The position numbers were made by a program, and so were the translations under genes. The notes beneath the pieces are model-generated. The model did not search any database. It saw nothing but the letters and a program-made list of their open reading frames with translations, and was not told where the DNA came from. 64,000 nt of DNA from contig JAJEKV010000167.1 in NCBI GenBank assembly GCA_021234155.1, positions 1-64,000 on the forward strand. The letters are read 5' to 3'. How positions within the stretch are numbered: position 1 is the stretch's first letter; the number at the start of each line of letters is the position of its first letter. Of the stretch, positions 24,426 through 60,000 are shown one piece after another. Origin of the DNA: Isoetes taiwanensis. Its lineage: Eukaryota > Streptophyta > Lycopodiopsida > Isoetales > Isoetaceae.

Positions 24426-26060
24426 TCACAAAATCAGCTCCAAATGCACTTCATCTGGCCCATCCGCAAGACGAGGTCCTAGATGCAGCCCATAAATGAG
24501 CAAGTTCAAAATCGAGATGTACTCCGGCAGCTCCGTGCACTTGGATAGCCGCATCCAACACTCTGAGAGCTACGCAAGGGGCAACTACCTGCAATTAACA
24601 AGAAAAAGTATTATCATATATTTATTCTAGTTAAATTTACCTATTTGATGAGTGTTGACATAAATATTACCTTTGCCATAGCCAGAGATCCTCTTGCAAC
24701 TTTTGCACCATGGAGATCCAACTCATGAGCCGCGTTTAGAACCAATGGCCTTGCTTGAGTGATGTCCGGGCGACCTTTCGCGGCTTAACAGAACACCCAC
24801 TTTAGCTAGCTCTATGAAACTTAGAAACTTATCACTACTAACATCTAAAATATAACGTGCAGAGTGCTGAACCAAGGCACCACTGTTGGAAAATATACTT
24901 CCAAATGCCTTCCTTGAAAGTGCGTTTCTACCATCAACTCAATTGCCCGCTCTGCAGATCCAACGAAGTCTCATGCGTTGGTGCAACCACCCGTGTCCTA
25001 GCCTCCCCTTTTGTGCCAATTTAGCATGGTCCACGAATACTAACATTATGTCCATGATATTTCAAAACCACGCCCTTCTTCCCAGTTATGTTGAGTGCGG
25101 GCATACGAACATTTTCAAATACTATTTCTGCGTATCCATGTGATGCATCATCAAAACCCATACACCAAGAAAGGCAGATTATTTTGACCCCTGTATTTTT
25201 ATGTCCACTAGGATCATTGGACTGTTGTCTGCGTAAGGCAGGTGCATTTACATGTTTTCCCCTATCATGATCACAGGGATTATCTTTGAAACCGATCAGC
25301 ATATAAAGGAATAGATTTGTGAAACGCGCAAAATCATAAGAATTTCTTGCAAATATAAGTAATCAAGGAATATTAAGTAATGTGGCCATGACTTAGCAAT
25401 ATGAAAAGTTCAAACATGCTAAGGTTTTGTTTAAATCGGATCTTCAAGCTCCTTTTGAGAAGTTACCGTTGTGTTTGAAACTTACCATCAAAATAAGTAT
25501 TTGGCATCTTGGATCCATTGCACCACTTCTCCATCACTTCCATTGATGATGTAATGATCTCCCACATTTACCGATACATTTTGCGGAGCAATTATTTAGT
25601 AGTTGCTAATTATCACTTTATTACCGATCCAACTCATTCAATATACCGGTCAATTTTGCACTCTATGTTTGTTGCATCCGACGATGCAACTTGAGGTTCG
25701 ATCATTGCACATCCGATCATTTTCTCATTCTAAGAGGGGCTTCAACCGGTTTTTGCTGTTCTGCATTTCCATATCTTAGGAGCACCTGTAACCATTTTAA
25801 GCTTTACATTGTATTTGGTGTCACTTGCTCAGAATGTAGTGACAATACGGAAGAAGATAACATGTTATCTACTAACAAACATGCAGAGCCATAATGAGAT
25901 CAAGGAACCAAGCTATGGCAATTCCTAAACCTACCTCCATATTGCACAATATCCGGTGCACTATCGTTGGTAAACTCCTGGCAGATGGCGACCAAGCGAA
26001 AAAGCGACAATGATATATACCACTTCCGGCTTTTCTCCGGCCATGGTGTATTCTACAAGA
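24426..26060 (-). pseudogene. IBR3-like acyl-CoA dehydrogenase relic
   Basis: Several exons of an acyl-CoA dehydrogenase of the plant IBR3/ACAD10-11 type are legible on the minus strand: VAFSLGRHLPGVYQR near 25965-26050; EPQVASSDATNIEC near 25650-25700; GDHYIING followed in another frame by WWRSGAMDPRC near 25517-25570; APALRRQQS near 25220-25245; GFDDASHGYAEIVFENVR near 25090-25155; GRLGHG and SRKAFGSIFSNSGALVQ near 24850-25015; RPLVLNAAHELDLHGAKVAR (24671-24782); and VLDAAIQVHGAAGV to RLADGPDEVHLELIL plus stop at 24426-24588. One clean 82-bp GT-AG intron (24589-24670) is preserved. Multiple frameshifts rule out a product. In Arabidopsis, IBR3 is a peroxisomal enzyme in indole-3-butyric acid conversion. 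The N-terminal kinase-like domain was not found. Confidence 0.88.
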
Positions 26061-30329: not shown

Positions 30330-30430
30330 TGAGGACATAGGACATATGACGGACCCAATACAACTAGAAGTCAGAAAGCAAGAGGACATAGTACATATGA
30401 CGGACCCCAATAGAACTAGAAGTCAGGAAG
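30330..30430 (-). repeat. Tandem 50-bp duplication of the dirigent stop-codon region
   Basis: Two adjacent copies of a unit containing gacatatgacggaccc, then aactagaagtcag and aagca. The right copy includes the real last codons and TAG of the dirigent gene; the left copy is a duplicate in its 3' flank. Confidence 0.85.
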
Positions 30431-30937
30431 CATAAGGAAGGTATCGAACAAGACAACACTATCAGGAATGTCGAGGTAAGTGGTGGTATAGGTAGTGTAG
30501 CCAGTAGCAGCGCGGAAGTCACCGGTACCACCAAGGACAGCGATTTCTTTAGAAGCAAGGGGACCGACGGATTTGTCAGTGCCTTGGCAGGCAATGGTGC
30601 CGTTAAATTTGGGAGACTGAAGCACAGCGCTAAAGACGAGGGTCGCGTGGGACGCATCGACGGCCGCGATCATGAAGGTACCCTTTGCTCGCCCGATTTC
30701 GTTGGCCGTTGTGAAATTTGGGTCGTCCAGAATCTGGTTGTCCATTACAAACAGAGATCCGAATTGTGTCTTGGTCGTGTCCCCGTTTGGGCCTGCTACC
30801 CGAACCCCTGTTGCATTCGGAGTCGTGATCTTGTCGTATAACCACATCTGGAAGTTTATCTTCTTCCCCTCTGCTCTTCCCACCGATACCAACACCATCA
30901 CCTACACCATCACTAGAATGGCTACTTTTCCCTTCAT
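30416..30937 (-). pseudogene. Dirigent protein gene with in-frame stop in signal peptide
   Basis: An intronless dirigent (DIR, PF03018-type) gene. Homology to the paralogue at 36.2 kb places the original ATG at 30935-30937, but codon 12 is TAG (30902-30904). Downstream, the frame is open for about 160 codons, with the family signatures PNATGVRVAGP, GSLFVMDNQI, EIGRAKGTFM, VFSAVLQ, FNGTI and GGTGDFR. Dirigent proteins are secreted and steer stereoselective coupling of phenoxy radicals in lignan and related phenolic synthesis. The paralogue has CAG (Gln) at the matching place, so a C-to-T change is a likely cause. A start at the later ATG (about 30898) would leave a hydrophobic leader of only about eight residues. 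It is either a recent pseudogene or makes a non-secreted product; readthrough is also possible. Confidence 0.9.
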
Positions 30938-36189: not shown

Positions 36190-36723
36190 TCAAAAGGAAG
36201 GAACAACGATGTGGCAATTGAAGCGAGCAACGCTATCAGGAATGTTGAGGTAGGTAGTGGTGTAATTAGCGAAACCAATAGCAGCGCGGAAATCTCCGGT
36301 GCCACCGACAATGGCGATTTCCTTGGATTGTTTGGAGCCGACGGATTTGTCAGTGCCTTGGAAGGCGATTGTGCCGTTGTATTTCTTGGTCTGAAGCACG
36401 GCGCTGAACACCAAAAACGCATGGGAGGCATCGACTGCAGCGATCATGAAGGTCCCTTTGGCTCGCCCGATCTCGTTGGCCGTCGTGAAATTGGGGCCGT
36501 CGAAGATCTGGTTGTCGATCACAAACAGAGACCCGAACTGGGTCGTGCTCGTATCCCCGTTTGGGCCTGCAACTCGAACCCCTGTTGCATTCGGAGACGT
36601 GATCTTGTCGTAAAACCACAGCTTCAGGCTTATTTTTTTGAACGGCTCCTTGCCCTCTACCCTCGCCAGCGACACCACCACCAGAACCTGCATCAGCAAA
36701 ATCGCTGCTACTCTCGCCTTCAT
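36190..36723 (-). CDS. Dirigent protein (secreted, intact)
   Basis: A 177-residue intronless dirigent gene. Residues 1-24 form a signal peptide (MKARVAAILLMQVLVVVSLA core, cleavage likely near ARVEG). Residues 30-175 are the dirigent beta-barrel, with PNATGVRVAGP (44-54), GSLFVIDNQI (64-73), EIGRAKGTFMIAA (84-96), VFSAVLQ (105-111) and GGTGDFRAA (140-148). N-glycosylation sequons are at N45, N78, N116 and N153, fitting an apoplastic protein. Family members direct stereoselective phenoxy-radical coupling without oxidising activity of their own; the substrate cannot be told from sequence. The length is normal for the family. It is a tandem paralogue of the broken gene 5.3 kb away, same strand, about three-quarters identical in the mature region by hand alignment. 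The 19-bp phrase tggccgaaatcaaaaggaa is duplicated across and just beyond the stop. Confidence 0.93.
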   Translation of the reverse strand: MKARVAAILLMQVLVVVSLARVEGKEPFKKISLKLWFYDKITSPNATGVRVAGPNGDTSTTQFGSLFVIDNQIFDGPNFTTANEIGRAKGTFMIAAVDASHAFLVFSAVLQTKKYNGTIAFQGTDKSVGSKQSKEIAIVGGTGDFRAAIGFANYTTTYLNIPDSVARFNCHIVVPSF

Positions 36724-36813
36724 CTTGCTTGCAAAATTTAAGTAAGCTTTCTCAGATTGCCGGATCTGCTCGAGGTTTTGCTCGCTTCTGAACTCAACTG
36801 AAGAGCTTTTCTG

Positions 36814-36821
36814 TATTTATA
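36814..36821 (-). promoter_or_regulatory. TATA box of dirigent copy 2
   Basis: TATAAATA on the minus strand, about 90 bp upstream of the ATG. It is the same octamer as in the broken paralogue, where it is duplicated. Confidence 0.65.
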
Positions 36822-44034: not shown

Positions 44035-45378
44035 TTGAGACTGTGGCATGTTTGAGCCACATGTCACGTTTGAGCCTATGTGGCATGGCATGTTTGAACC
44101 AAGGTGACATATTGTAGCCTAGGGGCATGTTTGAGCCTAGGGGCACAACATTGCAACCATAGAAAAAACATATGAAATCATATTCCATCCCTAAAAAAAA
44201 TAAATCATTTAAAAGAGCCACGGGTCGTATTTGAGCCAAGGTGGCATGTTTTAGTCTAGGGGCATGTTTGAGCCTAGGGGCACAACATTTCAATCATTAA
44301 AAAAAAATATATACAAAATTCATATTTCATCCCAAATAAAAATCATTTGAAAGAGCTTTTTTATGGCCCTAGTGGCATGTTTTAGCCACATGTCATATTT
44401 GAGCGAAGGTGACATGTTCTAGCCTAGGGGCATGTTAAAGTCTAGGTGCACGTTTGGGCCACGTGTCATATTTTGCCTAGAAGCGTGTTTGAGATGCATT
44501 TCACATTTGAGCCTATGTGGCATGTTTGAGCCACGTGTCATGTTATGGCCAATGTGACAAATCCTAGTCTAGGGGGGGATGTTTGAATCTTGCCGCACAA
44601 CATTTCAACCATAAAAAAAACATAGGAAGTCATATTTCATCCAAAAAAAAAAACATTTGAAAGCCCATTTTTATGACCCAAGTGGCATGTTTTGAGCCTA
44701 GGGGCATGTTTGAGCCATGTGTCATGTTTGAGCCTATGTAGCATGTTTGACCCTAGGGGCAATGCCCTATGTGGCGTCTTTGAGCCGAGGTGGCATGTTT
44801 GAGACTATATGGCATGTTTGAGCCAATGTAACATATTTGCGTGCGTGGCATGCTTGAGCCAAGGTGGCATGTTCGAGCCCAAGGACATGCTTGAGCCTAG
44901 GCGCACAACATTTCAACCCATAGAAAACCACAAAATTATATTTCATCCTTTCAAAAAAGTAAATCATTTCAAAGAGCATTTTTATGACCCTAGTGGCATG
45001 TGTTGAGCCACATATCATGTTTGAGCCACGTATCATGTGTTGAGCCTAGTGGCATGTTTGATACTATGTGGCATGTTTGAGCTAAGATGGCATGTTTGGG
45101 CCACGTCGATTTGGGCCATGATGGCATGTTTGAGCCTATGTGGCATGTTTGAGCCTAAGGCCGCCACGGTGGCATGTTTAAGCCTATGTGGCATGTTTAA
45201 GCCACGTGTCCAGTTTGAGCCAAGGTGACATGTTTGAGCCTATGTGGCATATTTGAGCCTATGTGGCATGTTTGAGCCAAGGTGGCATGTGTGAGCCTAT
45301 GTGGCATGCTTGAGTCACTTGTCATGTTTAAGCCAAGGTGGCATCGAGCCTAGAGGCATGTTTTGAGCCTATAGTCGA
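44035..45378 (+). repeat. Higher-order satellite, basic unit about 20-25 bp (ggcatgtttgagcc)
   Basis: Dozens of imperfect head-to-tail units of ggcatgtttgagcc plus a variable 6-10 nt (tatgt, aaggt, acgtg) fill this stretch. An unrelated AT-rich block starting cacaacattt(c)aacc recurs at about 44143, 44280, 44595 and 44906, giving a higher-order period near 310 bp for the later copies. Its right edge runs directly into a large inverted repeat. Confidence 0.9.
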
Positions 45379-49897: not shown

Positions 49898-50105
49898 TCA
49901 TTTATGAAAATACTTGTCGAGCATTTTCATGCAGTTGCGCGACTCTTCAGAATCCCACATGTTCCACATTTGATGTTCCTTCACATAAGCTGGCACACTT
50001 TCTGCAGCCAGAAGTCCCTCCAGCCATGGTTTGAGTTGCTCCAAAAGGAAATTGGAATCCAACCTGTCGGGAGCAAAACTATTTGGACATATCGTTCCTA
50101 GGATG
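49898..50105 (-). pseudogene. C-terminal exon of the right FCP1-like phosphatase
   Basis: The minus frame reads ICPNSFAPDRLDSN, then LEQLKPWLEGLLAAESVPAY and VKEHQMWN, ending at TGA (49898-49900). The stretch resembles the (A)IFPxSF...LRxYLEGLAAAENVQxYVxEH tail of plant FCP1-domain proteins and should directly follow the DDS motif exon now at about 57005-57064. The two are held apart by 6.9 kb of inserted DNA. Confidence 0.75.
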
Positions 50106-53100
50106 GATCCTATGACAACATCTATGTCGGCCGAAGTGAAGTGGTGTTCTCATTGAGCTTTGTAAAACATTGAGTACAAATGGATCCCTCACTAGGGATA
50201 GATAAATTTGGAAATATGAACTTTAAATGCTCCAAAACTAGACAATCATCGAGAGCATGATGAAACTGAAGAATACGACATAAAAAATGGTTTAATCCGC
50301 CACTTGGTCGATGCAAAGGTAAGAAGACCTGGTGACTGCTCCTCATCGGGAAGAAGAACCACGCCTTCTTGGGTTTTTGAGGAAACCCAAGCAAATAATT
50401 AAAGCACGACCCCATGCACTATGGCAACCACAAAGCCTTAAACAATCCTGCAGAATCAAGGCTGAAAGAAAAATAACCCATCAATGAGTTAGATGCCATA
50501 GGCAAGAAGACTCGGAGGCTCGAGGCCCGCCGAAAAGAAATAACAACCGACCAATCGGGAACCGTCCGCGGAATGACCATCACGGGAAAAAACAACCGAT
50601 TAGTGCTGCCTCGGAGGCTACAACGCCACAGAAAAAAATAACAAATATGATCTCTAGGCAAACCTTGTTTACGCCCGAGAGAAACATGAATAATAAATAT
50701 TGACTTCGGAAGCTACAAAGCCACAATCGAGAAAAACATGAATGAATAAATAAAATACTAGAGCCATGCCGAGAAAGAGTAAACCAATAAGTATGCCTCA
50801 AAAAGGCTACAAAAGCCATGCTGAGGAAATAAAGAATGCAAATTTAAAGGACATAGAAAAAGAAATAACTAACACGATCAAATGAAAAACCATCAAGGGA
50901 AGGAGGATGAGGGAAACTGATAGGATAGAGAAGAAGGAGAAATCTAGCTCAAGAGAACGCCGATGATAGAACGATGAAGAGAGGCTGAATAAATAGGAGG
51001 AGTGACAAAGGGCGTCCCCATCCAGGAATGTCGGTTGATTCTTTGTCGCCAATAGAACCGTGGCTATCAAGATAAATGGAAAATAAATAAATACTTTCTC
51101 GAAGGCTACAATGCCAATGCGAGAAAAAGAAACAATGCAAACAAAATTGTCACCACGAGCCACAAAATAGACGGAACAACACGCCTGTGGAAATGAATAA
51201 TAAATACTATCCGAGAGAAAAATGAACAATCATTTAGTCACGGAGGCCACATCTATGCCGAGAAAGAAAGAGATCATAAGAATGAAATGATAAGAATATA
51301 TGTATTATAAAAAACATAGAACGGAAACCATGGAAGATTTAGAGGATCTGCAGGCGACCCAAAATGTGGAAAACAAAGATGAGATGGTTAACGGACTAAA
51401 AAGGAAAAAGAAATGGAAAGGGATAATGGGAAAAAGAAAAAACACGGATACGGGCCTGATGTAGACAAACTATCAAGGGAGGGAGGGTAAGAGAGCTGGT
51501 AAGACAGAGGAGAAGGAAAAACTAGCTCAAGAGAACGGGTGACGACACAATGAAAAGAGGCTGAATAAATAGGGAGTACGAAAAGGGGCGTCCCCATCCA
51601 AGGAATGTCGGTTCTATTGCTATCGCAATAGAACCGTGGCATTCCTAGGATGGGTCCTATGACAACATCTATGTCCGCCGATAGAAGAGGAACAAATCTC
51701 ATCCTAGACAAAGAAAGAAAAGAAGCCAAAATGAAATATGTTCGATGAGAAGGGAGAAATGAGGCCTACCAAGGGTCAACCGGAATAACATGAAAGAGAA
51801 TACACAAATAAGGCTGATGGCAAAAGCGGAACGGCCACAAGTGTGAAGGTACAGAGGGGATGAATCCAGATAAAGGAGGATGAGCAGACTAGGTCAAGCG
51901 AATGGAACAAATGAAATCATAGATAGAACAATATAGGATGAATAGAATACAAGATATCAAAGGAACAGATGAGATGAAAGAGATAAGAGGGGATAATGAG
52001 ATAAAAAAGATAAACGAGCAATAGGACAAACAAGAAGAAGGGGCAAGGAAGGAGTTCCCGAGTACTGGGAAAGGTTCATCTTGAACAAAAGAGCAACCAA
52101 AGCAAATAGAGAAAAAAGGAAGAAAGAGCAAACTAAGGAAAATGGAGCGAAAGGGAAAGCAGAGACGTAAGGAGCCAAGAGAAGCAGAATGAGCAGGTAA
52201 AGCCGGAATCCGAAGAATGGGATGCATACATGAAGGACATAAGAGAACCAATGCCGTGAAAGATGGAAGAGGAGCATGAAAATAGAAGATGGAATAGAGC
52301 AGTAAGAGATGAGAAAAGGAACTCATGGAACAACAACCAACAGAGCCATAAACATGACGACATCAACAGAGTAATGATGGCAATGACTAATGCACTAATA
52401 AATACTATACTAACAAAGATTCATAAATCCGAACTATCCTAACTAGCAATAAACAAGGAGCAAGAAGACAAAGAAATCGAAGAAGGAACTGACGCAACTA
52501 AAGGAGTAATAGTATCATCAGAGTTGAACAAAACAACAAGCCAAAGGAAATTAATGAAGGGAACAATGCATACATACTCGAATAGAGCCATATAATGAGA
52601 AGCATAAAGTAAAAATAAGCACAACCAACCCATAATGGAGCAAGTCAAATCTCATAGAATAAATTGAAAATGTGGAATAAAAAAAAAGGGGGAGAAACGA
52701 GTCCACAAGGATCAGTGGAACAAAATGAAACAGAATGCACAGATGAGGCTAATGTGTCATATGGAGCAAGTGAAACAAATCTAAAACGGAGATAACAAAG
52801 GGTCAATGCGAAAAACACAGAAACATAAAAATCAGAGTAAAGAAGGGCAAAAAAATACCCAAATGACAAAAGTAAAAATGCCTCAAAAACAAACAAACCT
52901 ATTGACAAACTTGAACAAACCGAAATAAAGGCAAAAAATACGTGGAAAAAATGGAAATCACGGAAAAACAAAATGAGCAAACTTGGATAAAAAACAAATC
53001 GAGAGGATGAAGCACTGGCAAGTGGATGGAAATAACTGGAATAAGGACATCAAGCAATGAAGCGGAGTAACTTAAAACAAAAGGGACAATTGTGCAACTG

Positions 53101-56100
53101 TGAGAAAACAGACTAAAAAATGTGCAAAAGACACCGAGTGAAACAACGGGCAAATAGCCCAAGGGATCAGTTATCCATGCGAAGCAAAACATAAGTGAAA
53201 CCAAGCAAGTGAACTGAACGTGCAAAAGAAACAAAAATGCAAAATACGAGAACCATGCTAAATGGATCTTATGCTCATGCATCTGAAGAAAAAGAGTGCC
53301 TCAAATATAGGCATAAACCATGCAGAAGTCTCAACGCAGAAAGGAACTATGTAGAGGGCAATCAAGAACAGGGGAAAAATGAGTAAAGGAGCAAAGCGGT
53401 TACATAAGGCAATCAAGAATCACGGGCTGGCCGACAACCTTGCACAAAGCAACATAGAGAGAGTAAATGGAACATGTCAGGACAAGTGAAACCAAACACC
53501 ACAATAAATCAAGGAAGAAAGATGCTCAAAAACGAAATAAGAAAAAATGAAAACTAGGACAACTCATGCCAATGAGACAAAAGTATAGTAAAAATTAGTA
53601 AGCACTGACAAATTCATAGAACACATGGGACCACCAGAATGGATCATAACCTGCAATCTGGAACGAACCTGTGAGGGCAATACAAAGGAACAACCATGAT
53701 ACCCAAAATATTGAGCACCCAAAATTGTTGACACCATAGCCAAATATAATAATGAGTATGCGGGCAAAGGCACTAGAAGCTGGACAAAGTGTCATGGAGT
53801 CATTGGAGTAAATAGGAAAAAGAAGACGAGAAATCATAGAGAAATACAAAACTAATGGAAGTGACGAGGCAAATGAAAATAGTACCAAATGGAAAAATAC
53901 AAGCACGCCGAGGAATGAAGAGAGTAGACCATCTGTCACGAAAAAATTCAACAAACCAACAAATCACGTAATGATATAATACGAGTTAGCAATAACTGTA
54001 AATCCCATAACTTGTGAAAGAGGACCAATAAAATTCTCCGAAACCTTCCATTCGCACCAGATGTTTGCTGAACAAGAGCATAACCTAGACACATTATCTA
54101 ATGTAAATGATCATAAACAACTCCGAAAACATGCAAGACCACCAGTAACTATAGACATGCAAGCCACAAGGAACATTCCAATAGAAAAGACGGATTTTTG
54201 AAGCAAAAAATGCTCATAAGCAAAAAGAGAACATTGACAGGATTAGAAGAATAGGTGGTATGCACGAGGAAAAGGACCCATGAAAAATATAAGTGGAGCA
54301 CGATGAATAATTGGCGCAAATACGACTAAAGAGCAAATAGGAAAAAAGCAAAGAGAAACAACTAAAGTAACATGAGCATAGCAAAGAACAAATATCGAAG
54401 GAAGCTGCTGAATATGAAGTATATTTGACCTACCGAAGGAAAGGGCGAAGGGATACAAGACCATCCTATAGCCAAACCACACCAATCCTAGCCAAATATT
54501 AAAACACCATGCCCAAACATGTTCACTGGAATGAGAAAAAACGGAGAAGGTCTTGCAAATGTGGCAATCCAACAAAAGAAAATTAAAGAAATAAAGAGAG
54601 GGGTTCGACTAGATGGTACTAGAGAAAAATTCAAAACAAAAGGGATCACCCTAAAACCGCCATATAACAAAATCCAAAAGTGACAAACAACTCAAGAAAC
54701 TATGTAAAGCAATCACGGCACAACGAAACCACGTCGAGAAAATGAGAAACTATAATTGACATAATAGCTCATTAAACTACGTGAAGCAAGCACCCCTTGT
54801 TAATGCGAACTACAGATGTCAGGATAATGGGGCCATGGGACATTGGAACCATTTCGAGGTAAGGAGAAACAAAGAGAAGAATTTGAGGAATTATGCAACC
54901 AAACCAATGTTGACGGTACAATGATTAACCACCATAATGAGCCGCACTAATAATTGAGCACGATGTTAACTGTGCCAACCTATGAAATTCACCCTAGTGC
55001 TAAGAGGAGGCAAAACATGCATTTGAGGGGCATTCCAATCTATAAAAACTTGATTTCCAAAAAAGTGCACAACCCATAGTGGTTCATGCAACCTAACGCA
55101 AAGACAGTCAGACGAAAACCATGAAATACCAACCATCATTATTATGATAAAAACAACATGCAAATGTCGAACAATTCAAGGGCATCGAAGCGAGAGAAAC
55201 ATGGATGCATCTACGGCACCATCGAACATATGTAAGGGCCATACAACTCAACGAGGTTAGAAAAAATGCATATAATGGACAAACCAACAAACGTAAAGGG
55301 ATACCGCGAAACAAACGAGGTTAGAAACCATCACCCGAAGATGACTTTCAAAGAAGTGGGAAACATATCAAAAGCGCATATCTTAAATGCATTCCAAATG
55401 TAACCGCATTCCAACAACGTGAAGACTTGGCCTTGCCTGGCATGTTCTGATTTTGGCACCCCTAGTCAAAGGGCGTTGGAATAGCGCGCATGTAGATGCA
55501 ATAGTAGTCGAAAAGGATCAGAAACGAAAAAGAACACCATTGTTAATCCGAGAAGAAACCGTGAAAAAAATGCTAGCGATAGAATAATGCTAAAGAAACC
55601 ATACTCTAGCGACCGGGGGAACAATGTGAAGCGATCCCAAGAACTCAAGGGGCGTGAACCAACAAGCTTAAAAAGAAGCGATATAGAAAATGTCAAAGAC
55701 AAAATCCAAAGAATAAAAGGAAGGCAAATGACCATTAGAAAAATCCAAGGAATAAACTTGTAGGGAAATGGAGACCCCGGTATCCCGAAAAAGGGAAAGA
55801 ACAAGGGGAAACCAATTCCTAGTATCCCTCCAAAAAATCAGAATAACCAAGCGTGGTGGAAGCGGTTGTGATCGGCGGTGACCTTTGCAGCCAGGGATCG
55901 ATTGAGGAAGGATTTTATTTACAGGCATAAGATCAATACCAAGGCACAACCAACGCAAAAAACCATACTTACTGCTTTGGATCACAAGAATAGAAATGAA
56001 AGAAAATGATTATAACCAACAACCTCTAAGCGAATCGGTTGTACACAAAGCTTTTGAACTATATGACCTTCGAGCTGACTAATCTCCTCTCAAACTGCAT

Positions 56101-57002
56101 CCTGCGCTTGCAAATCAAACCGACTTCCAGCACGGTGTGAGGGAAAGCCATCACAAAGAGCATTCAATTCAAAGTCGAGCTCCTGATGCCGCCATGTCAA
56201 ATCGATTCCAAGATGACCTCCAGACCTGCGAAAACCGAAAGCAATAAAAGATGCTGCATCTAAACAAGAGTCGCCCCCAAAACTTCTGGCAACTCAGAAA
56301 AACCATTTACTTGGTTCACCGACAAGATCACTCAGTCCCAGATCCCACATCTATAAAAAAAAGCTGACGAAATAAGAACAATCAGAGGTTTTTGATCCCA
56401 CAGTGGGATCTGCAAAAAAAAAGACTACACTTAGCACAAAAATCTCTGGTACTAATTATATCAAACGAAATCTGTTGTGGTCGCCTCAGCATAGCGTGGC
56501 ATCAGGAACATCATCCGCCTCTCTCCGAGCTCAACAGGGTACCGGATAGGGATTGACAGCAAAAAGGCACTCTATCTAGAGCATGCAGACCCTGGCCATC
56601 TGAAGACTTGGGAAGCAACCACGGCAGCCATGCCATGCCCCCAAACATCCTGCCAGCGCTCAAATCCACAGGCCAGAGCCCCAACTCGATCCAGATGAAA
56701 GGGAAAAATCACAGAAAAAGGGTTTGACTATAGAAGGGAAAGGGAAAACTTCCAGATCTAAAAAGCTTAACAAAATGATTCGGTAGAAGTAAAGCCTGAT
56801 TGGATCGAAGCAAAGCTGCAAATTCAATCCAGTAGAGAAGTGAAGGAGAAGCTGGTAAGACAGAGGAGAAGGAAAAAACTAGCTCAAGAGAACGCCGATG
56901 ACGAAACAATGAAAAGAGGCTGAATAAATAGGGAGTGCGAAAAGGGGCGTCCCCATCCACGGAATGTCGGTTCTATTGCTATCGCAATAGAACCGTGGCA
57001 TT
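50106..57002 (-). mobile_element. Composite purine-rich insertion of unknown type
   Basis: This 6.9-kb block splits the phosphatase locus between codons for NQPNT and ICPNS. Read on the minus strand it begins TGCCACGG with a terminal hairpin (GGTTCTATTGC-gata-GCAATAGAACC) and a TATTTATT box about 60 bp in. It ends with CATAGATGTTGTCATAGGA and TCCATCCTAGGA. The same start and end meet head-to-tail at about 51648, so two copies (about 5.4 and 1.5 kb) appear to be in tandem. A third copy of the start sequence lies internally at 50893-51059. The plus strand is strongly purine-rich throughout, no frame encodes a known protein, and LTR, RT or transposase features were not found. Candidate host-site repeats ACAA/ACGA flank it. 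Confidence 0.6.
50495..51270 (-). repeat. Periodic array of a hairpin motif (ctcggaggctacaa...gccgag)
   Basis: Six to seven diverged copies of a self-complementary motif, CTCGGAGGCTACAAaGCCAtGCCGAG in idealised halves, occur at about 50511, 50611, 50705, 50796, 51090 and 51236, several at 95-100-bp spacing. Between them lie AT-rich stretches with aataaata. The pairing is kept although bases differ. Confidence 0.55.
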
Positions 57003-57004
57003 GT

Positions 57005-60000
57005 GTTCGGCTGGTTGGCAGATGCCTTATATCTGCTGTCATCTATCAACAATGTGTTTTTCACTTGGTATTTCCAGAATTTCTAGTACACTTTGGACCT
57101 TAAGGAAAATTGGCTTATTAACCACTTTTAATTTTGTGTTGGTGCAGTCATCCTGATTCCAAATAAAAAGAAATCTGCCCTTATATTCCTGCAGCAACTT
57201 TCTCATCAACAAGTCAACATTACTCTTAGCCATGCTGGACCACAATGCAATCTCAAATTTTGAAAAACACCATTCTAAGAACTCCTGTGTAATCCAGGCC
57301 TGGAAACTGCTGCCTTTTGAAGGTTCAATTTCTGGAGGGTCACTTCTGGCTCGGCCGATGCAGGGATCCTCTCTTTCAAGTCATAAAATTTGCCTAAAAC
57401 CCCATTAAAATCCAGAACAAGGAGAATTTCAGTTAACCTCTTGGCTTTTCTTGGTTGAGGTTGTATTGGACTCGTTGAGCAGTCTGCATCTTTGTCCAGG
57501 ATCCGGGATTTCTTGGTTAACATCATCACCTGCATCCGCATTTGGCTCATGTTCAGCACCAAAACTTTTTTCTGGTGAAGGACCCCGTGCAGAATGAATC
57601 TCGAGGGAATTAATTTCCCCCCCTAAAACAGATGCACTAGGAATCTCTTCGTGATGGCTTCCAGTTGCAGTAGCATTTATCTCTGTAACATAATTGAAAG
57701 AAGACCACAGAAAAATACAAAAAAATAAGTCATGTATGTGGCATCGATACTTACTTGATATGACTGCATTCAGTTCACTATCCAAATTTCGTTTTGGAGT
57801 TTCCACGCCATCAGCAGCTGGGATTGACTTAGAAGTATCAAATGGGGTGAATTCTAGGTACAACAGGGAGTATCTTGCAGTCTCATAACTGATCGAGGCG
57901 TGGATAACTATTGGATATCCTTGGTCTCAAATTTCTGCAATTCTGCAAACACTAAGTCAGTAGACCTGTGACAACATCAGTAAACATTAGTTAAGGCACT
58001 TACTTGTGTCTATTGGTTCTTGTGGTACTACTCGAACACCAAAAGCCAAAAGCCATGTCGCAGTCATAATGTGGGCACAACTGGGGCTGCAGCAGGTTCT
58101 AGAGTGTCTGCAAAACAAATTCAAAATCAATAGAGTCTTTAGACGAGGGTTAGAGATGATAATATTTACCTCAAATGGTGTGATAGAATGGAATGTGATA
58201 CTGGTGACTACATTCTGCTATCACAACTGGCAACATTTTACCCTCCCATTTCAGACAATGTCCACAAAATGGACAACCTTCATCACCCTCTTCTTATGCC
58301 TCAGGAAGCATTGGAAGTGCAGGATCTAAAGGAGTGTCATGACCACTACGCTCAGAAAAAATCTCAAATCTTTGCATTCGAGGTTGCAGCTCCAAAGATA
58401 AGAAGTCTTCACATGCCTTTAGCTCAATTTCGGTTTACGCTAGTTCCTTATTTAATTGATTCAGCCTAGGCAACACTTTGTACCATTTAGCTCTTTCATC
58501 CTTTGGTTAAACACAACCCGAACACCCTCTGCCGCTGGATTTGTTCTTTGTCATGATTGATTGCCATCCTGCAGGTAAAATCAGCTCTAATTTCGATGCT
58601 TTATGCTCCATCAACTCAATCTTTCTTTTGATATCATTTTTCCTATCCTCGTTTGCTTGCAATCGTTGCTTTGCATCTATCAAACCTAGCTGATGTTGCA
58701 GCCAACCATTCCTTCACAAGTCTGCCATACTCTTCAAAACAAAACACTACGTATACATCAGCCTCCTAACATAGTAAGCCACGTACTGATGGAAAACCAC
58801 AATCACACACCACACAATACAAGGTACTCTCTACACACCACCACATACCACACACCACACAACATATACGCCTGCACAAGACACACCACAAACACGCCGG
58901 TGGTAGCAAGGAGTGGTGGGACATTGTGCTTGGGGTGAAGTGGTGTGTGGTGGTGGTGGTGTGTGTGGTGGTGGTGGGGTGGGTGGTGGGGTTTGGTGGT
59001 GGTGGTGGTGGTGGGGTGTGTTGTGGTGGTGGAGTGTGGTGTGGGACATGGTGGAGTGTGGTGATGGGGGGTGGCCGGTGGTGGTGGTGTGGTGTGGTGG
59101 TGGTGGAGTGTGGTGGTGGGGTGGGGTGTGGTGGTGGTGGATTGTGGTGTGGGACATGGTGGAGTCTGGTGGTGTGGTGTGGTGGTGGTGGAGTGTGGTG
59201 GTGTATGCGTGGTGGAGTGTGGTGGTGGTGGTGGAGTATGGTGGTGGTGGAGTGGTGGTGGAGGGTGGGAGTGTGGGTGGGGAGATGGTAGAGTGTAGTG
59301 GTGGAATTGGTGGGGTGTGGTGTGGGACATGGTGGATGCCAACAACTCACCACTCACCCAGACCACACATACCTCATCTATCATTCGCATCCATTGCACG
59401 AAATGCCCCATGAGATGGCATCATAGAGATACAACATGACAATACATACCAACATGATGCAAAATGGTAGTAGACATACACGATTCTTGAAGTGGATTTG
59501 ATGTTACCTTTTACGTGAAGATAGAAACAATCTAGGTCAAGCTTGAGATTTTTTTTACGTTATAACACCACTAATAATTGAACATACACAAGAATGGCAT
59601 GTTTTGGTCTCAGAACATTGCTCTGCTTTTCTGTTTTGATTGTGAGTTCAGATTGAATGTTTGGTCTAGAGGAACCTGATTTGGTTTTTTTCCTATCATC
59701 TTCATCGTCCCTGTCACTTTTACTATTTTTCTCCTGGTCAGCTTGGATTTGCCTATGCTTTCTCTTGGGTCTAGAAGAACTGGCCTCTGCTTTCTCATCG
59801 GGAGTTTTATAATAATCCGAGAAGCTCTTCCAATTAACAGCCTCCCCCTTTATATGTAGATAATAAGCCACTGCCCAGGTTCCAGGAGCCATTCCACCCC
59901 ATGTATGTGGCTTCCCTGTAATTCTTTTGTAAATTTTCATGAACTCTTTGTATTGTTCATTGCTCAGATTCTTCAACCTGTACAAGAAAATATATGCCTT

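Follow-up and report, generated by a model that had tools for sequence, protein, structure and literature searches.

A head-to-tail pair of probable non-autonomous Helitron2/Helentron-type transposons in a phosphatase exon of Isoetes taiwanensis

Introduction

Helitrons are thought to move by a rolling-circle mechanism, and for the element Helraiser the available parts of one report describe a 3' hairpin that acts as a terminator, bypass of that end, and the formation of precise head-to-tail circles (PMC4778049). In Helitron2, as characterized in the accessible text of Bao and Jurka (2013), asymmetric terminal inverted repeats (ATIRs) are placed 0-2 bp from the 5' end, within a 5' hairpin, and immediately upstream of the 3' hairpin, and the 5' end begins with a T (PMC3627910). 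The non-coding HINEs are portrayed, in the portions at hand, as having subterminal inverted repeats (subTIRs) of 12-15 bp, the 3' one about 38-60 bp from the end, together with a 3' palindrome, and Helentrons are said there to prefer a TT target (PMC4067079). Of direct relevance to the locus analysed here, adjacent head-to-tail Helitrons with different bodies have been found in maize, from which the authors, in the sections available, infer consecutive insertions (PMC2267711).

Among the matches listed for papers containing the whole words Helitron2, Helentron or HLE2, no title announces a study of this variant from land plants; titles on maize and rice Helitrons do occur, these papers containing one mention of 'Helitron2' each. 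The HELIANO paper reportedly distinguishes two clades, HLE1 and HLE2, with many new elements in land plants. Under Repbase naming, the suffix SMo presumably stands for Selaginella moellendorffii. Since Helitron-5_SMo is named among the Helitron2 elements in the excerpt available (PMC3627910), land plants seem already to be on record as hosts of Helitron2.

Here we analyse a head-to-tail insertion in a 64,000-nucleotide stretch of the lycophyte Isoetes taiwanensis (assembly GCA_021234155.1, contig JAJEKV010000167.1, positions 1 to 64,000 of the forward strand), referred to as the window. The original prediction for this locus, made from the letters and a list of open reading frames, had left open whether the insertion is a Helitron relative, a rearranged LTR element or a new class.

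Results

Reading the stretch from 49.7 to 57.4 kb and comparing it with itself, we found a 6,906-bp insertion (50096-57001) that interrupts an exon of a NIF/FCP1-like phosphatase gene and is made up of two units (Table 1). The dinucleotide TT stands at 50095-50096, 51642-51643 and 57001-57002, and T|T thus forms all three contacts of the insertion. These contacts fit insertion between two Ts and a 2-bp TT duplication alike, and the unit lengths of 1,547 and 5,359 bp assume that insertion took place between both Ts of a TT. With both edges shifted together by up to 2 bp, no direct repeats of 3, 4, 5, 6 or 8 bp flanked it. All that the original prediction described (a hairpin, a start sequence that recurs and an end-start junction inside the insertion) was confirmed, while the positions had to be refined: the edge given as 57002 is the contact 57001|57002, the shared end expected at about 50106 lies at 50095|50096, and the second start, expected at about 51647, lies at 51642|51643. 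The elements are real and form a well-bounded pair of Helitron2/Helentron type that abuts at T|T.

Table 1. Coordinates of the two units, their terminal features and the interrupted host exon (positions in the window)
Feature	Position	Strand	Remarks
Host phosphatase exon, far side of the insertion	49898..50095	-	joined frame reaches stop; NIF to profile 158/160
Unit 1, non-coding Helitron2/Helentron-type element	50096..51642	+	1,547 bp; ends shared with unit 2; boundaries T|T
5' asymmetric terminal inverted repeat, unit 1, TTCCTAGGATGG	50095..50106	+	first T is the host T of TT
5' hairpin, unit 1, TAGGA/TCCTA 5-bp stem	50099..50112	+	weak; overlaps 5' inverted repeat
Older, decayed 3'-end copy within unit 1	50884..51068	+	broken hairpin
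3' asymmetric terminal inverted repeat, unit 1	51594..51605	-	37 bp from 3' end; hairpin directly downstream
3' hairpin, unit 1	51609..51636	+	perfect 12-bp stem, 4-nt loop; z -5.12, 0/200 shuffles
End-start junction of units 1 and 2	51642..51643	.	T|T, zero bases in between
Unit 2, non-coding Helitron2/Helentron-type element	51643..57001	+	5,359 bp; ends shared with unit 1; boundaries T|T
5' asymmetric terminal inverted repeat, unit 2	51642..51653	+	begins with the final T of unit 1
3' asymmetric terminal inverted repeat, unit 2	56953..56964	-	10/12 match
3' hairpin, unit 2	56968..56995	+	identical to unit 1 hairpin; z -5.03, 0/200 shuffles
Host NIF/FCP1-like phosphatase CDS, N-terminal side of the insertion	57002..57412	-	two frame changes

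When the flanks of the insertion were joined in four ways (one TT, three T, two TT or one T), only the single-TT join was in frame, and with it the host frame stays open until the stop ending at 49898; a variant of the join that removes 6,909 bases, three more than the insertion, is also in frame. From EFLEWCF to its end, the joined piece, whose query carried XX at one frame break, matched Pfam NIF with 39 bits (E 8.1e-10, profile 45-158 of 160). The control cut at the join scored 30.2 bits (profile 45-127) and the control read on into the element 32.2 bits (profile 45-130), so that the flank beyond the insertion contributes 7-9 bits and 28-31 profile positions, a support that is real but modest. 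A shorter joined version, at 25.5 bits, passed the cut-off of 21.8, which the unmodified upstream open frame, at 19.5 bits, did not reach. Taken alone, neither the 56-aa upstream piece nor the 82-aa piece that spans and follows the join had a Pfam match, and a PDB sequence search with the joined phosphatase returned nothing convincing (one match, E 0.21). With the single-TT join in frame and the NIF match extending across it, the proposed insertion into a phosphatase exon is supported. The two frame changes of the interrupted gene (57042-57412, minus strand) lie near 57285 and between 57095 and 57052; the gene may already have been a pseudogene, independently of the insertion, or the assembly may contain small errors here.

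We then compared the ends of the units. Both open on the + strand with TTCCTAGGATGG(A/G)TCCTATGACAACATCTATGTC, in which the first T of TTCCTAGGATGG is common to element and target, and both close with CGGTTCTATTGC-TATC-GCAATAGAACCG-TGGCAT, which lies within a shared 3' end of about 150 nt. In blastn, the 5' ends aligned over 40 nt with 95% identity (50095-50134 with 51642-51681) and the 3' ends over 153 alignment columns with 95.4% identity (51494-51643 with 56850-57002). Apart from these ends and an older 3' end in unit 1 described below, the unit bodies gave no further blastn match at E 1e-3.

The 3' hairpins, which end 6 bp short of the 3' end in both units, are the longest perfect stems of the 64-kb window when stems of at least 10 bp with loops of 3-8 are considered; six of the eight stem rows recovered are these two identical hairpins at three loop sizes. 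Their z values (Table 1) were obtained by folding the 3' ends as single-stranded DNA and comparing them with 200 shuffles. This structure had previously been described as a near-perfect 11-bp hairpin at the start of the insertion. The hairpin itself stands, with a perfect 12-bp stem and a 4-nt loop, and the orientation was reversed, as it marks the 3' end on the + strand. The stem of the weak 5' hairpin recurs in unit 2 (51646-51659), the sole difference falling within the loop, and its folding was matched by 90 (unit 1) and 72 (unit 2) of 200 shuffles.

Inverted repeats were assessed with an anchored test, in which the 5' terminal 12 nt were matched against the last 100 nt of the unit, and 568 100-nt segments from outside the insertion served as controls. 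In unit 1, the repeat at 50095-50106 matched 51594-51605 in 11 of 12 positions, a level equalled by none of the 568 controls, and in unit 2 the match of 10/12 was reached by three of them. An unanchored search, allowing the repeat anywhere in both ends, was not significant (89/1000 shuffles for unit 1 and 224/1000 for unit 2); the anchored test, which was run after this free search, is the one called for by the family definition.

Taken together, both units have an inverted repeat at the 5' terminus whose 3' copy is subterminal and precedes the hairpin (by the anchored test), a hairpin near the 3' end, and an insertion site within TT that shows no longer target duplication. The 3' inverted repeat lies 37 bp from the end, which is outside the about 20-30 bp given for Helitron2 (PMC3627910) and falls slightly below the 38-60 bp given for HINEs (PMC4067079) in the available text of these papers. 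Because these terminal marks match published Helitron2/Helentron ends except for this distance and the weak 5' hairpin, we conclude, with a probability of roughly 0.88, that the insertion consists of two non-autonomous, HINE-like rolling-circle transposons of Helitron2/Helentron type, both in + orientation within the phosphatase exon, their status as a family resting on two units at one locus. Hence the 'Helitron relative' of the original prediction is the best supported of its three readings, in the form of the Helitron2/Helentron variant.

Other classes of element were considered and rejected. The units start with TC as canonical Helitrons (Helitron1) do, but they end with GCAT rather than CTRR and sit in a T|T rather than an A|T target. 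A cut-and-paste TIR transposon would have symmetric terminal inverted repeats and a target duplication, but the outermost 15 nt at either end do not form an inverted pair. The new class that had been envisaged is not supported either: the pair neatly represents a type of element that is already known.

The insertion showed no sign of coding capacity. All 77 open stretches of at least 45 aa were given to Pfam, and no family exceeded its cut-off; the nine weak matches all lay far or clearly below the curated cut-off (lowest E 0.04), and RepHel, Pif1 and transposase families were absent among them. These scans, from which shorter or frameshifted coding remnants would escape, agree with the original prediction, in which no transposase and no reverse transcriptase had been found. 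Across the window, there were no Rfam matches at gathering scores and no tRNA genes. Within the elements, TRF listed only three short low-score rows and no central tandem repeat array. The exact 5' and 3' terminal patterns each occurred in 0 stretches of viral contigs, a result that is uninformative for a plant element.

The composition of the DNA changes with the insertion. Purines make up 64% of the + strand in both units, compared with 51% in the window left of the insertion, and the AT skew inside ranges from 0.33 to 0.54 by segment. In 1-kb windows moved in steps of 250, the largest absolute AT skew outside, 0.28, equals the lowest value inside. This step in purine content and AT skew occurs at both boundaries and supports them. 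The strand asymmetry spans both units despite the lack of blastn similarity between their bodies. As a speculation to which we give only a slim chance, a single-stranded intermediate might have left this pronounced excess of A on one strand.

Unit 1 additionally contains an older, decayed copy of a 3' end (Table 1). Its sequence from 50884 to 51064 is 79.3% identical to the 3' end of unit 1 over 184 columns, and from 50913 to 51064 it is 82.4% identical to that of unit 2 over 153 columns. The hairpin has been lost, with 86 of 200 shuffles folding as well, and no 5' end follows: the best match to the 28-nt 5' end in 51041-51600 has 13 mismatches. The reading that fits best is that this copy once served as a terminator, that its hairpin decayed, and that it was then bypassed in favour of the later 3' end at 51642.

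In the surroundings, 18 open frames outside the insertion were given to Pfam, of which two dirigent-like frames and, weakly, the NIF frame matched sensibly. The dirigent-like frames (30419-30901 and 36193-36816, both minus, about 5.3 kb apart) matched PF03018 with E 8.6e-32 and 3.5e-29; being similar to each other by eye, they are probable tandem dirigent genes. These frames indicate a land-plant genome; to our knowledge, the dirigent family is confined to land plants. A further open frame (25024-25362, minus), which by eye we take to resemble part of an acyl-CoA dehydrogenase, had no Pfam match at E up to 1. The stretch 44044-45372 is occupied by interrupted arrays whose diverged units measure 18-19 bp and 37 bp (GGCATGTTTGAGCC...), and a GTG-rich low-complexity array of about 400 bp lies at 58931-59335, outside the phosphatase frames on their N-terminal side.

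Discussion

The closest relatives of the pair in the literature, here taken from the available portions of each paper, share some of its features and differ in others. The layout of the ATIRs, the 3' hairpin and the 5' T are those of Helitron2, and its short non-autonomous families likewise lack a target duplication; on the other hand, no RepHel is found in the insertion, and the target is T|T, whereas in Chlamydomonas insertion follows TTTT (PMC3627910). With HINE / DINE-1 elements the units share their non-coding nature, 12-bp subterminal inverted repeats, the 3' palindrome and the TT target. Those elements are described from animals, whereas the present ones are from a plant, have no central tandem array by TRF and possess bodies that are strongly A-rich on the + strand (PMC4067079). 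FoHeli of Fusarium oxysporum also has Helitron2-type ends, and its authors detected joined ends and one case of insertion adjoining another copy, but the terminal sequences are different and the target is TNAT|T in two subgroups (PMC5148889). The maize locus AF466202 resembles ours in that two different bodies abut head to tail, but its elements are canonical Helitrons (TC...CTAG, target A|T), and their abutment gives a G|T junction, while the T|T junction seen here is of the same type whichever unit inserted first (PMC2267711).

How did the pair arise? We propose that a RepHel transposase, supplied by another locus of the genome, would nick at the 5' T, that the strand would be peeled off towards the 3' hairpin, serving as terminator, and that the peeled strand, probably by way of a circle, would be inserted between two Ts. 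The edge of this first copy would then have been the landing site of a second, different member of the family. With a T at the start and at the end of each unit, any copy that inserts provides a TT target on either side. Consecutive insertion could hence be easier here than in maize, in that a T...T element between Ts offers TT targets, as far as one locus can suggest. Copies from one circle are unlikely because the unit bodies share nothing that blastn detects, and judged from the sequence, insertion beside an existing copy appears likelier than the production of two copies from one circle. We are less confident of this order of events than of what the elements are.

The same two elements might instead have arrived in a single event, as a composite that was formed elsewhere and moved past the terminator at 51642, and the odds of this scenario overlap with those of our main reading. 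The T|T at the three contacts fits one event as well as two, for intact Helraiser the share of events in which flanking DNA is captured is put at about 11.7% in the text available (PMC4778049), and an older, apparently bypassed 3' end is present in unit 1. However, the hairpin at 51609-51636 is perfect, and bypass is less expected there than at the decayed one. We regard such a composite as possible but rather unlikely.

Considerably less probable is an assembly artefact, in which the junction at 51642/51643 would unite elements that lie apart in the genome. Shared termini commonly cause misjoins; yet the outer flanks join in frame as one exon, which places at least one unit truly at the site, and the join is base-exact at both termini.

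An even smaller chance is left for the idea, raised in the original prediction, that the junction reflects a tandem or circular intermediate of one element, be it a tandem from rolling-circle replication or an integrated circular dimer. The junction is precise and head-to-tail, and such junctions are known in Helitron circles from the accessible part of the Helraiser report (PMC4778049), but this origin requires near-identical bodies, whereas blastn similarity is restricted to the ends and the units differ in length (1,547 vs 5,359 bp).

Equally improbable is the rearranged or nested LTR retrotransposon formerly entertained, with the 153-column repeat as a short LTR: this direct repeat (95.4%) does begin with TG on the minus strand and one 7-nt primer-site motif occurs with 1 mismatch on each strand, as expected by chance in 7 kb, but the inner repeat copy lies away from the ends of the insertion, the flanking direct repeats sought above are missing, the two 12-nt primer-site motifs tried had no match below 3 mismatches, and the repeat bears the Helitron2 hairpin and inverted repeat.

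The pair is a well-bounded family founder for annotation, and it illustrates how a Helitron2-type pair can pass for an unknown class when read backwards with textbook Helitron ends in mind. If T|T self-targeting were true genome-wide, the formation of head-to-tail Helentron chains would follow a simple rule, and end-bypass could be traced in plants. More speculatively, and as a conjecture to which we give only a slim chance, Helitron2-type chains of unrelated bodies between fixed ends may grow in this plant by T|T self-targeting and be mobilised as a whole once an inner hairpin has decayed and is bypassed; if true, large composite non-coding elements could be built up in this way step by step.
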